From: Desulfuromonas sp.
GTDB lineage: Bacteria; Desulfobacterota; Desulfuromonadia; Desulfuromonadales; BM501
Length of the DNA: 51,405 nucleotides
Assembly (NCBI RefSeq): GCF_002868845.1
Contig: NZ_PKUB01000022.1
Span: forward strand, 1-51,405
Direction of reading: 5' to 3'
Shown in pieces: positions 11,583 through 32,843 of this stretch (the first letter of the stretch is position 1; every line of letters starts with the position of its first letter). A program made the position numbers and the translations under genes. Under the pieces are notes generated by a model. That model saw only the letters and a program-made list of their open reading frames with translations. It did not search any database and was not told the DNA's origin.

Positions 11583-12233
11583 ATGAAACGTAATGGTATC
11601 GTCTTCGTCGTATCCGCACCGTCAGGGGCCGGCAAGACGACTCTATGCAAGGAACTTATTGACTTGTTCCCCCGCCTGCGGCATTCTGTCTCCTACACGA
11701 CGCGGCCCAGGAGGCAGGGTGAACGCGACGGTTCCGACTATCACTTCGTCACCGCGTAGCGATTCTCGGCCATGGTGGCGGCGGGGGAATTCGCCGAGTG
11801 GGCCGAAGTTCACGGCAACTGTTACGGGACGGCGATCCAGACCCTGGATGATTGGCGGGCCGCCGGCGAGGACGTCCTGCTGGAGATCGACTGCCAGGGG
11901 GCCGCTCAGTTGAAGCGAACCTGCCCCGGCGCCGTATTTGTCTTCATCCTCCCTCCCGGTTTCGCAGAGTTGAGACAGCGCCTTGAGGGCCGCGACACCG
12001 ATGCCCCCGAAGTTATCGAGCGGCGCATCGCCAACGCAAGCATTGAGGTCCGGGAAGCCGCCTGGTACGATTACGTGGTGGTCAACGATGAGCTGCCCAG
12101 GGCCCTTGAGGAGCTGAAGGGCATTGTCGTTGCGGAGGGGGCGCGCGCCCGCAGGGTATTGCCGGGGGTGGCCGAAGAGTTCCGCATCCCATTGCCTGCG
12201 GCGGACAGCGGCGGACAGGGTTCACAACCATAA
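11583..12233 (+). CDS. gmk: Guanylate kinase, interrupted by an in-frame UAG at codon 59
   Basis: The frame gives a 216-residue guanylate kinase if TAG at 11757-11759 is read as an amino acid. Before it stand the P-loop [15 protein letters not shown] and [20 protein letters not shown], the GMP-binding part. After it come [18 protein letters not shown] and [12 protein letters not shown], also conserved. GMK phosphorylates GMP to GDP and is normally essential. The stop falls at a variable position (HFVTA-stop-RFSAMV), one base from CAG (Gln) or GAG (Glu). Translation stopping there would leave 58 residues without the lid and the rest of the GMP site. Neighbours yicC and rpoZ are in the expected order. 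ATG 11583 follows GAAGGGAAGT. The gene is identified firmly; whether the codon is read is unknown. Confidence 0.85.
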
Positions 12234-20029: not shown

Positions 20030-20887
20030 ATGAAAGATTACAAAACCGTTGTACTCTCCAATCAGGAAATCTCTCCCGGTTACTTCCGGATGCGCCTTCT
20101 GGCCCCGGGAGCCGAAGAGATGGTCCGGGCGGGTCAGTTTGTTATGCTTCGGGTAGGAAGGGACCTGGCCCCTTTGCTGCGCCGCCCCTTCGGGGTCTTT
20201 CGCACAGGCTTTCTGCCGCCCGACTGCGAGGGGCTTCCCCCCAAGGAGTATATCGAACTGCTCTACAAGGTGGTGGGGCGCGGCACTGCGACTATGAGCG
20301 CCCTTCACGAAGGGGATCAGGTCGAACTGATGGCTCCGCTCGGCAAGGGGTTCGATCTCGGTGCCCCGGGGGGGCAGAGCATCCTCGTCGGAGGCGGGAT
20401 CGGACTTGTTCCTTTGTTCCTGCTGGCCGCAGAACTGGCCAAAACGGGTCGGGTCAATCTTCTCATCGGAGTACGCACCCGGGACGACATCATCGCCGTG
20501 ACCGAGTTCGAGAGACTTGGTGTGGAGACCTACGTCTCCACCGAAGACGGCAGCCTGGGCGAGCAAGGTCTGGTGACCCGGGTTCTGCAGAGCAAACTCG
20601 ACGAGGAGCCCGGCGCTGGCGTGTACGCATGCGGGCCGATGCCCATGCTTGAGGCGGTTCATTCCATCTGTGCCGATCGGGGAGTGCCCCTGCAGGTCTC
20701 CCTTGAGGCGCTCATGGCATGCGGTGTCGGGGCCTGCCTCGGTTGCGTCGTCAAGGGGGCGGGTCACAGCGAGGGGAAACCGCGCTTTTTGTGCACATGC
20801 AAGGAGGGTCCCGTGTTTCGGGCCGAGCAACTTGATTGGAGCAGGATCGGTCAGGAGGAAGGATACTGCGAGGGGTGCAGATCATGA
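20030..20887 (+). CDS. pyrK: Dihydroorotate dehydrogenase electron transfer subunit PyrK
   Basis: The 285-residue protein has a ferredoxin-reductase-like FAD domain ([10 protein letters not shown]), a NAD-binding part ([19 protein letters not shown]) and a C-terminal [2Fe-2S] site [10 protein letters not shown] with a further cysteine in [11 protein letters not shown]. It passes electrons from PyrD to NAD+ during dihydroorotate oxidation in pyrimidine synthesis. pyrD follows with an ATGA overlap, so the two are translationally coupled. It ends with TGA. Confidence 0.95.
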
Positions 20888-21860: not shown

Positions 21861-24515
21861 ATGGAAGTCATCACCACTCACGTCAATGCCGATTTCGACT
21901 GCCTCGGCGCCATGATCGCGGCCAAGAAGCTCTATCCCCGGGCCCAACTTGTTTTCGCCGGCGCCCAGGAGCGCAGCCTCCGTGAATTTTTTCTCAGAAG
22001 CGCTCTTTATGCCTACGACTTCAAGCGAATCCGGGATATCGACCTCGATGCGATCACCCGCCTGATTCTGGTCGATGTCCGGCAATCGCAGCGCATCGGC
22101 CCCTTTGGAGCGGTTGCGGAACGGGACGGCGTCGAGATCCACATCTACGATCATCATCCGTCCGGACAGGCCGACATCCGTGGAACCCTCGAGCTCATCG
22201 AGCCGGTCGGGGCCACCGTCACCGTCTTTTCCCAGCTCTTCATGGAACGGGGTATCACCCCCGATCCCGAAGAGGCCACCATGATGATGCTTGGGCTGTA
22301 CGAAGACACCGGCAGCCTGCTCTTCAGCTCCACCACCGTCCGGGACTACCAGGCGGCGGCCTTTCTCCTTTCCTGCGGCGCCAACCTCGACACCGTCTCC
22401 GACTTCCTCACCCAGTAGTTGACCCCCGACCAGGTCGCCCTGCTTCACGAACTCATCAAAAATCGCACCGTACTCAACGTCAACGGTGTTGATGTCTCCA
22501 TTGCCCACGCTTCCCTGGATCATTTCGTGGTCGACCTGGCGGTTCTGGTCCACAAGCTCAAGGACATGGAAAACCTTCAGGCGCTGCTCGTGGCCGTTCG
22601 CATGGGGGACCGGGTATTTCTGGTCGGCCGCTCCCGGCTTCCCGAAGTGCATGTGGGGGAGATCTTCGCCGAGTTCGGTGGGGGGGGACACGCCTTCGCG
22701 GCCTCGGGAACGGTTCGCGACCTGACCATGGTCCAGATTCTTGAACGGCTGCCCGATGTCCTCAGGCGCCACGTCAATCCCTTGTGGGAAGCCCGCCACC
22801 TGATGTCCTCTCCGGTCAAGAGCGTCAATGCCTCGGACACCATCGGGGACGTTCGCAAGACCCTGACCCGCTACAACATCAACTCCCTGCCGGTCATGGA
22901 CGATGGCGAGATGGCAGGGATCATCACCCGGCAGGTGGCTGACAAGGCCGCCCACCACGGGCTTGGCAAAATCCCCGTTCGGGAATATATGAGCAGGGAG
23001 TTTGCCTCGGTGACCCCGGATGCCTCCGTAGAATCTCTCAAGGAACTCATTGTCGGGAACAACCAGCGCTTTGTTCCGGTGTTCGAAGAGGGACGTCTTG
23101 CCGGGGCCATCACGCGCACGGATCTCCTGCGTCACATGGTGGCAGGGGTTCGCGCCAACCACCGTCAAGGTGCGGGGAACGGGAATTCGGAACTGATTCC
23201 TCGAAAGCGGTCGGTGGCACGGCTGCTGCGCGACCAGTTGCCCCCCCCCATACTGAAAATGCTGCAGGACATGGGACAGGTCGGGGACGCTCTGGGAATG
23301 AACATTTTTGCCGTCGGCGGCTTTGTTCGGGACCTCCTGCTGCGCCAGGAGAACCTCGATGTCGATATCGTTGTGGAGGGCGAAGGGATCGCCTTCGCCA
23401 CCGAATATGCCAAGCAGCACGAGTGCCGGGTCCGCGCCCACCGCAAATTCGGCACTGCCGTGATCATCTTTCCCGACGGCTTCAAGGTTGATGTCGCCTC
23501 GACCAGGATGGAATACTACCTCGAGCCCGGGGCCCTCCCCACCGTGGAGCATGCCTCCATCAAGCTCGATCTCTACCGGCGGGATTTTACCATCAACACC
23601 TTGGCGCTGGCCATCAACGGCGAACACTACGGAGATTTGCACGATTTTTTCGGGGGCCAGCGGGACTTGGAGGAGAGGGCCATTCGGGTTCTTCACAATC
23701 TCAGCTTTGTCGAAGACCCGACTCGAATGTTTCGCGCCATCCGCTTCGAACAGCGCCTCGGGTTTCACATGGGCGTACATACCGAGCAACTGCTGCGCAG
23801 CGCGGTGCGCATGGGGTTTCTCGACAAGGTCGGGGGGGGACGTGTTTTCAACGAACTCGTCCTTATCTTTATGGAGGCCGACCCCCTTCCCGCGGTTCTG
23901 CGCATGGCCGAACTGGACCTTCTCAAGTACATCCACCCCTCCCTGGCTGGAATCAAGAAGGCCCGTCCCCTGTTCGAGGCCGCAAGCCAGGCCCTCCATT
24001 GGCATGCCTTGCTCTACACGGGTGAGACATGCCGGCGCTGGCTGGTCTATTTTCTCTGCCTGACCGCAAGTCTCGATCGGGACGCCATTGAAGGGGTCTG
24101 TAGCCGCCTCAGTATAACGGCCCGCTACCGAATGGTGGTGGCGCAGGAAAGAGAGGAGTCTCACCGCGTTTTGCAAGATATTCACCGCTACCGATCCCGG
24201 GGCCGCACTCCGCGGGCCAGCCAGGTTTACCGCTGGCTGACCCCCTTTTCAACCGAAACACTGCTCTACCTCATGGCCAGCGCCGGTCACGAGGAGGTGC
24301 GCCGTTGGATCTCCCAGTACTTCACCCGTCTGGCCGGTGCCTCAAGCATCCTCACCGGAAGCGACCTGAAGCGTATGGGGTTACCGCCCGGGCCCCGTTA
24401 CAGGGAGATCCTCGATGGCCTGCTCGATGCCCGGCTCAACGGCAAGGTGGTTACCAGGGAGGACGAGGTCGCCCTGGTGAAAAAGCGGTTCCTCCGGTCG
24501 GCTCCGAAGACCTAA
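21861..24515 (+). CDS. DHH-CBS-tRNA nucleotidyltransferase fusion, interrupted by an in-frame UAG at codon 186
   Basis: Read through TAG at 22416-22418, the frame gives an 884-residue multidomain protein. Residues 1-330 form a DHH phosphoesterase unit: [20 protein letters not shown] and [12 protein letters not shown]. Two CBS domains follow ([16 protein letters not shown] and [16 protein letters not shown], to about 430). The last part is a class II tRNA nucleotidyltransferase with [12 protein letters not shown], a DVDIVVEG metal motif and [14 protein letters not shown]. Geobacter is reported to use separate C-adding and A-adding enzymes, and this fused type is a candidate for one. The stop sits mid-DHH in FLTQ-stop-LTPDQ, a variable linker, one base from CAG or GAG. 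The second half has no clear start of its own. It ends with TAA. Confidence 0.85.
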
Positions 24516-31007: not shown

Positions 31008-32843
31008 GTGGATAAACATAAAATAAGCATTTTGCCTGAAACCCTCTGCAACCAGATTGCCGCCGGCGAGGTCGTGGAGCGGCCGGCCTCGGTGGTCAAG
31101 GAACTGGTGGAAAATTCACTCGATGCCGGGAGCAAGGATATTCGGATCGAAGTGGAGAAGGGGGGCAAGCGTCTGTTGCGGGTAACCGATGACGGCGAGG
31201 GGATGGGCAAGGATGATGCCTTCCTCTGCCTGGAGCGCCACGCCACCAGCAAAATCACCTCTTCCGAAGACCTTTTCCAGTTGCGCACCCTCGGTTTCCG
31301 GGGCGAGGCTCTGCCCTCGATCGCCTCGGTTTCCCGCTTTACCCTCCGGACCCGCTCGGCCGAGGCTCAGGAGGGATGGGAGATCTACGCCGAAGGGGGA
31401 ATTGTCCGGAGGGCGGAGGCGGCGGGTCTGCCCGGCGGTACGGTTATGGAGGTTAGAGACCTCTTCTTCAACACACCGGCGCGGCGCAAGTTCCTGCGCC
31501 GCGAGGAGACCGAACTGGGCCACATCGGCGATGTCGTGACCAAACTGGCCCTGGCCCATCCGGAAGTGCAGTTTCGCCTGGTTCATAACGGACGCGCAAT
31601 CCTGGAGGCCTACCGGCAGGGCTCCCTCGAGGAGCGGGTCGGGGCGCTTCTGGGCCGTCCCCTCCTTAAAGACCTACTGGCCATTGAGATGGATGATGGT
31701 GACGGCCTTAAATTGACGGGGCTCGTCTCCCAGCCCGCCGTCACCCGCTCGACAACCGGCTACATTTACACCTTTATCAACGGGCGCTACGTCCGGGACA
31801 GGGTCGTCCAGCATGCTGTGCTTGGGGGGTACAGGCACCTGCTTATGAAAGGGCGCTATCCCGTTGCGGTTCTGTTCCTCGAGATCGATCCCGAAATGGT
31901 CGACGTCAACGTTCATCCGACCAAGCACGAGGTTCGGTTCCGCTAGCAGGGACGGGTCCACGACTTTCTCGCCTCCTCGGTTCGACAGACGCTGAGCCCC
32001 TCCGAGTGGCTCTCCCATGCAGATGAGGCTCCTACCCCCGAGACCATACCCGCCGCATCGATTCGCGAAGGTGGGTCTGCGGGCGCCGTTCCTGATCGCC
32101 CTGCCCAATCGCCCGTTGCCGCCCCTCAGGTTGCTCTGACGGGGGTTCGGGAGGCTCTTACGTCCTATGCGGGCGGCGCACCGGCCGTTCCAGGCTCTTC
32201 CTCCGCCCCCCCTCGCCGGTTCGAGAACGCCCCCGAACCGCTCATGATCGCCACCGGCGGGTTTTTCTCCTCCCTGGAGCTTATCGGGCAGTACCGTTCC
32301 AGTTACATCCTTTGCCAGGACGGGGAGGACCTGATCCTGGTCGATCAGCATGCAGCCCACGAGCGAATCGGTTTCGAGCGCCTTCGTGCCCAGTTCCGGC
32401 AGGGAACGGTCGAATGCCAGGCACTGTTGTTCCCGACGGTCATTGAGGTCGATTTTCGCGAAGCGGCCCTTCTTAAAGAGCAGTTGGGGGAGTTGGAGCG
32501 GCTTGGGTTTGAACTCGAACCGTTCGGGGGGAAGAGTTTTGCTCTCAAGGCCGTCCCCCGCTTGCTGCGAGACGCCGAGGCGGAGCAGCTCGTTCTGGAC
32601 GTCGCGGCCGAAATTGCTTCCGTCGGCAAGAGCGGGCTCGCCGAGGAGGCCCTTGACAAGGTCCTCATGCTCATGGCCTGCCACGGTGTAATTCGGGCCA
32701 ACCAGGGCCTGGCCCCTGCAGAAATGCTCGCCCTGCTTCGCGATCTCGACGGGGTCGATTTCAAGGCCCACTGCCCCCACGGCCGGCCCGTTATGTCGCG
32801 CCTGGCCGGTGTCGAGGTTGAACGCATGTTCAAGAGGACCTGA
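31008..32843 (+). CDS. mutL: DNA mismatch repair protein MutL, interrupted by an in-frame UAG at codon 313
   Basis: Read through TAG at 31944-31946, the frame encodes a 611-residue MutL. The N-terminal GHKL ATPase has ENSLDAG (35-41), DDGEGM (61-66) and GFRGEAL (96-102). After the stop come a proline-rich linker and the dimerisation/endonuclease domain with DQHAAHERI (446-454) and CPHGRP (589-594), so nick-forming activity is expected. The stop lies at the end of the ATPase core in EVRFR-stop-QGRVHDFL; from memory, E. coli MutL has glutamine there (CAG is one base away). Stopping would leave an N-terminal fragment unable to nick DNA and could cause a mutator state. The start is GTG 31008. miaA overlaps its TGA. 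Confidence 0.88.

Follow-up and report, generated by a model that had tools for sequence, protein, structure and literature searches.

The question raised by this locus is whether an in-frame TAG in the gene of an RNA-repair enzyme is accommodated by the cell, through read-through, internal initiation or a natural gene split, or whether it entered the sequence as damage, error or recent mutation. The gene lies in a 51,405-nucleotide stretch of a Desulfuromonas sp. assembly (contig NZ_PKUB01000022.1), called the window below. Its relevant features are:

21861..24515, + strand: A-adding tRNA nucleotidyltransferase gene, DHH-DHHA1-CBS-CBS-PolyA_pol, with one in-frame TAG (from NF041569, Pfam and homologues)
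22416..22418, + strand: in-frame TAG at codon 186, where a conserved Glu is lost (GAG to TAG; from 104 homologues)
22419..22421, + strand: TTG adjoining the stop, the sole immediate candidate restart (from the sequence)
22530..22532, + strand: codon 224, GTC (Val), with Gly in 98/104 homologues; a G-to-T change (from the homologue alignment)

We confirmed the TAG at 22416-22418 in the assembled sequence. With the frame set by the ATG at 21861, the gene runs for 884 codons up to 24515 and is unbroken apart from codon 186. Upstream of the TAG, 185 codons correspond to the DHH domain (match to Pfam PF01368 over residues 3-145); downstream, 698 codons (22419-24515) encode DHHA1, a pair of CBS domains, the PolyA_pol head and an RNA-binding domain; DHH, DHHA1, CBS and PolyA_pol are all present in one frame, interrupted solely by the TAG. 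NF041569 was by far the best NCBIfam model. The upstream half matched its positions 1-185 and the downstream half its positions 187-876, which leaves exactly one position to the stop. When codon 186 was set to X, a single match to positions 1-876 of 880 was obtained (1190 bits), short of the curated cut-off of 1440. For the related nucleotidyltransferase core, structures have been solved (3h37, 4wby and 1vfg). The original prediction had identified the gene as a DHH-CBS-tRNA nucleotidyltransferase with the stop in the middle of the DHH unit and the catalytic part entirely downstream, and we found the same: the stop sits between two DHH sub-domains, PF01368 before it and DHHA1 after it, and the nucleotidyltransferase domains lie wholly 3' of the TAG.

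The stop site itself was examined in 104 homologues, drawn from GTDB contigs as well as related genomes. The codon 186 column holds Glu in 98 sequences, Asp in five and Gly in one, and is not a variable linker. The first base of the equivalent codon is G in all homologues, with GAG in 53 of them, which makes one private G-to-T change the best reading of the TAG. Among 37 related genomes, 36 carry the gene at full length (51-72% identical) and one carries a C-terminal contig fragment; the homologues from related genomes are continuous across codon 186, which puts the break beyond chance. At columns at least 90% conserved, all five deviations of the A-adding protein could be reached by G-to-T or C-to-A, compared with 29% in 60 controls. 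A distant Nitrospinota MAG (L128) has one in-frame TAG elsewhere in its A-adding gene, at aligned position 271 before the FGGGGH motif, unrelated to the one described here.

A natural split gene, in which the TTG 3' of the stop would start a separate CBS-nucleotidyltransferase protein, was rejected, as none of the 104 homologues is split at codon 186. The TTG does adjoin the TAG and opens a 698-codon reading frame, and the CCA-adding enzyme of T. maritima does not need its accessory domains to be active (PMC8208693). However, the stop replaces a conserved Glu within the DHH unit, no purine-rich ribosome-binding site was seen 5' of TTG 22419, no promoter-like site was found before it, and stops of like kind are present in unrelated genes. 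The residue that follows the stop position is Leu or Met in homologues, an ordinary internal residue. Taken together, we consider a split gene very unlikely.

It had also been proposed that tRNA 3'-end completion would depend on read-through or internal initiation. This was not borne out: all 43 distinct tRNA genes recovered encode CCA, so the A-adding enzyme would serve end repair and new tRNAs would be independent of it. The CCA-adding enzyme of E. coli has a repair role. The genome also encodes another class II nucleotidyltransferase (L003, 451 aa) and a poly(A) polymerase of the PcnB type (L002, above its cut-off). For Geobacter sulfurreducens, a passage of PMC8208693 that cites Bralley et al. 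2009 gives separate CC-adding and A-adding enzymes together with a poly(A) polymerase.

In-frame stops were then surveyed in the assembly as a whole (G000; 3.70 Mb in 56 contigs, 99.8% complete), of which 778 kb (21%) was sampled, window included. Phase-specific Markov scans, which superseded an earlier and insensitive composition scan, were used to find stops flanked on both sides by coding sequence, and candidates were checked against four relatives. We found 21 in-frame stops (15 TAG and 6 TAA), all of them in genes unbroken in relatives, a rate of ~8 G:C-to-T:A changes per 10,000 susceptible codons. The genes concerned are cmk, N-acetylmuramoyl amidase, lysC, cyclopropane-fatty-acid synthase, a pyridine nucleotide-disulfide oxidoreductase-like gene, a carboxyltransferase, a C-terminal protease, an XRE regulator, histone-deacetylase-like and photolyase-like genes, tig, lon, cysQ, a P-type ATPase, mutS2, aspS, korA, bioA, gmk, mutL and the A-adding gene (apart from gmk, mutL and the A-adding enzyme, these names were assigned by reading the sequences). 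The stops in gmk and mutL were placed as follows:

11757..11759, + strand: in-frame TAG in the guanylate kinase gene gmk (single-copy), Glu in 7/10 relatives
31944..31946, + strand: in-frame TAG in mutL (single-copy), Asp/Glu in 9/11 relatives

Relatives have Glu or Asp at 17 of the 21 sites, Ser at three and a mixture at one (lysC); korA, where they show one Glu and three Lys, is counted among the Glu/Asp sites. In the comparison of the window, two more stops, at 20704 and 32819, were excluded because on visual inspection we placed them 5' of gene starts. Two TGA codons were also left out, as selenocysteine sites at which relatives have TGA too. These conserved TGA codons are found in a peroxiredoxin and an AhpD-like protein (L154:6084-6086 and L149:5156-5158). 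Two further probable in-frame TAGs came from the last Markov scan, one uvrB-like (C41a -94952, reverse strand of joined L206-L215) and one ilvD-like (C18a 56310, joined L154+L216-L223). Stop density was apparently lower in the two longest contigs, in scans too uneven for this to be relied on. No genuine in-frame stops were found in the homologous regions of 11 relatives (~520 kb covered).

The stops share a common type. G:C-to-T:A explains 20 of the 21: 17 are GAR to TAR (G-to-T) and three are TCG to TAG (C-to-A). Since Glu to stop requires G-to-T and Ser TCG to stop requires C-to-A, these represent the identical G:C-to-T:A change on either strand. None of the 21 could be clearly assigned to Gln, Trp or Arg, although codons for these residues are common. 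Missense sites were affected as well as stops, as seen from radical G-to-T changes at invariant columns, which numbered 10 here (seven missense, three of them Gly-to-Trp) and 4, 3, 1 and 1 in four control genomes. The missense spectra of the window alone gave no clear excess, which emerged with more regions. One radical missense change is found in mutL:

32595..32597, + strand: mutL codon CTG (Leu), Arg in relatives; a radical G-to-T missense change (from comparison with relatives)

We considered whether suppression or ambiguous decoding allows UAG (and UAA) to be read through at these sites, giving the full enzyme. The frames 3' of the stops are intact and conserved, and, if the sequence is correct, the hits in essential genes would make read-through obligatory. 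Yet such decoding would have to involve two stop codons (UAG and UAA) and two amino acids (Glu and Ser), and a CUA or UUA anticodon was found in none of 45 tRNA matches. PylS is absent (best match 26.8 bits, where 178 is the cut-off), and RF1 is complete, with both the GGQ and the PxT motif kept. Of ~480 selected reading frames, 158 finish with TAG and 103 with TAA. The excess of G-to-T missense changes likewise counts against read-through, which we regard as improbable. A pyrrolysine or other UAG code was rejected on the lack of PylS and of a CUA/UUA tRNA and on the intact RF1.

The sequence context of the changes points in another direction. At all 20 assignable stops the changed G precedes A; judged from codon counts, the probability of this by chance is ~5e-4, other contexts also being able to give stops. 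In a Pseudomonas mutY mutant in vivo, the GA context made up 80% of G:C-to-T:A events (PMC3676378). If the GA context alone mattered, Asp-to-Tyr changes would be expected too; none was seen at 830 conserved Asp, where only ~1 was expected, in regions picked for holding stops. We also found that mutM (fpg) is a decayed pseudogene, with the MPELPEVETT start and a zinc-finger remnant kept, several hundred bases lost internally, and frameshifts:

L299:1410-1677 (G000 contig C18, ~123.8-124.0 kb): mutM pseudogene

The uniform GA context and the mutM pseudogene together favour real mutation and count against error or damage. A mutM-less lineage would gather G:C-to-T:A changes, and the sequenced population would carry many recent nonsense alleles, the codon 186 TAG included. 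In such a lineage the A-adding gene could be truly broken yet tolerable, because the tRNA genes encode CCA. The stop in mutL is also in keeping with a mutational load of this kind. Several observations oppose it: the essential single-copy genes gmk, cmk and aspS were not spared, and MutY is complete (L296:1435-2541). MutY residue 91, which adjoins the W-GLGYY motif on its N-terminal side, is Ser, with Leu in 14/15 relatives. A mutM match was absent in 3 of 12 relatives as well (G010, G008 and G015, one of them just 87% complete), yet in the nearest, G010, the 45 kb that could be compared held no genuine nonsense. Moreover, the mutM remnant looks old, so a recent burst is not explained by mutM loss. 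We treat a real mutational load as the main rival reading, possible but doubtful. The stronger version, that the sequence is correct and a MutM-less lineage with roughly a hundred live G-to-T nonsense alleles, some of them in essential genes, survives by broad UAG/UAA read-through through a mechanism not visible in the tRNA set, seems very improbable.

On balance, the TAG is best taken as a private GAG-to-TAG change in an otherwise intact gene, part of a genome-wide G:C-to-T:A excess in this one draft, and we think it probable that it is damage or consensus error fixed in the assembly. Oxidative-type damage, or consensus error, would have given rise to the G:C-to-T:A changes and become fixed in the assembly, and the TAG and its like are then most likely not working alleles of living cells. 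The genes gmk, cmk and aspS are essential in bacteria. Here each is single-copy and interrupted, and no intact second copy of any of the three was found in this genome. A living cell could therefore not carry the given sequence as its sole allele; this favours damage or consensus error in the draft. Damage or error is further supported by relatives that are free of such stops in the regions compared and by the G:C-to-T:A excess at both stops and missense sites. No frameshifts were seen in the window, and the assembly is draft- or MAG-like in that a search for 16S rRNA found none and tRNA-Ile(GAT)/Ala(TGC) are missing. Two further points argue against it. Such an error rate in contigs of 50-280 kb would need very low coverage or amplified, damaged templates, and the C-to-A share is too low, at 3/20 where codon counts predict ~6.5.

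The stop thus looks like DNA damage, sequence error or mutator load rather than a novel route to tRNA. With many G-to-T nonsense changes across the assembly, no special mechanism is called for in the A-adding gene. A tempting case of read-through in an RNA-repair enzyme is thereby removed, and the whole assembly is flagged: in-frame stops, and odd changes involving Glu, Gly, Ser or Arg, are all suspect there. If the stops are real, they would amount to a striking nonsense load in an anaerobe without MutM.

Compared with the Geobacter/Aquifex-type A-adding tRNA nucleotidyltransferases described by NF041569, the domain order is identical, whereas here one codon is TAG and Gly224 is Val. The in-frame UAG within conserved genes resembles pyrrolysine or UAG recoding, but here UAA is found too, Ser and Glu are both replaced, and PylS and a CUA tRNA are lacking. 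Shearing artefacts show a CCG context, in contrast to the GA context found here. With GO-repair (mutM/mutY) mutators the genome has in common the G:C-to-T:A type, the GA context (PMC3676378) and a mutM pseudogene; it differs in its complete MutY and in the hits to single-copy essential genes, intolerable for a living clone. Set beside 8-oxoguanine-type damage or error in draft genomes, the changes are scattered G-to-T and C-to-A, without indels in the window, and hit genes of all kinds.
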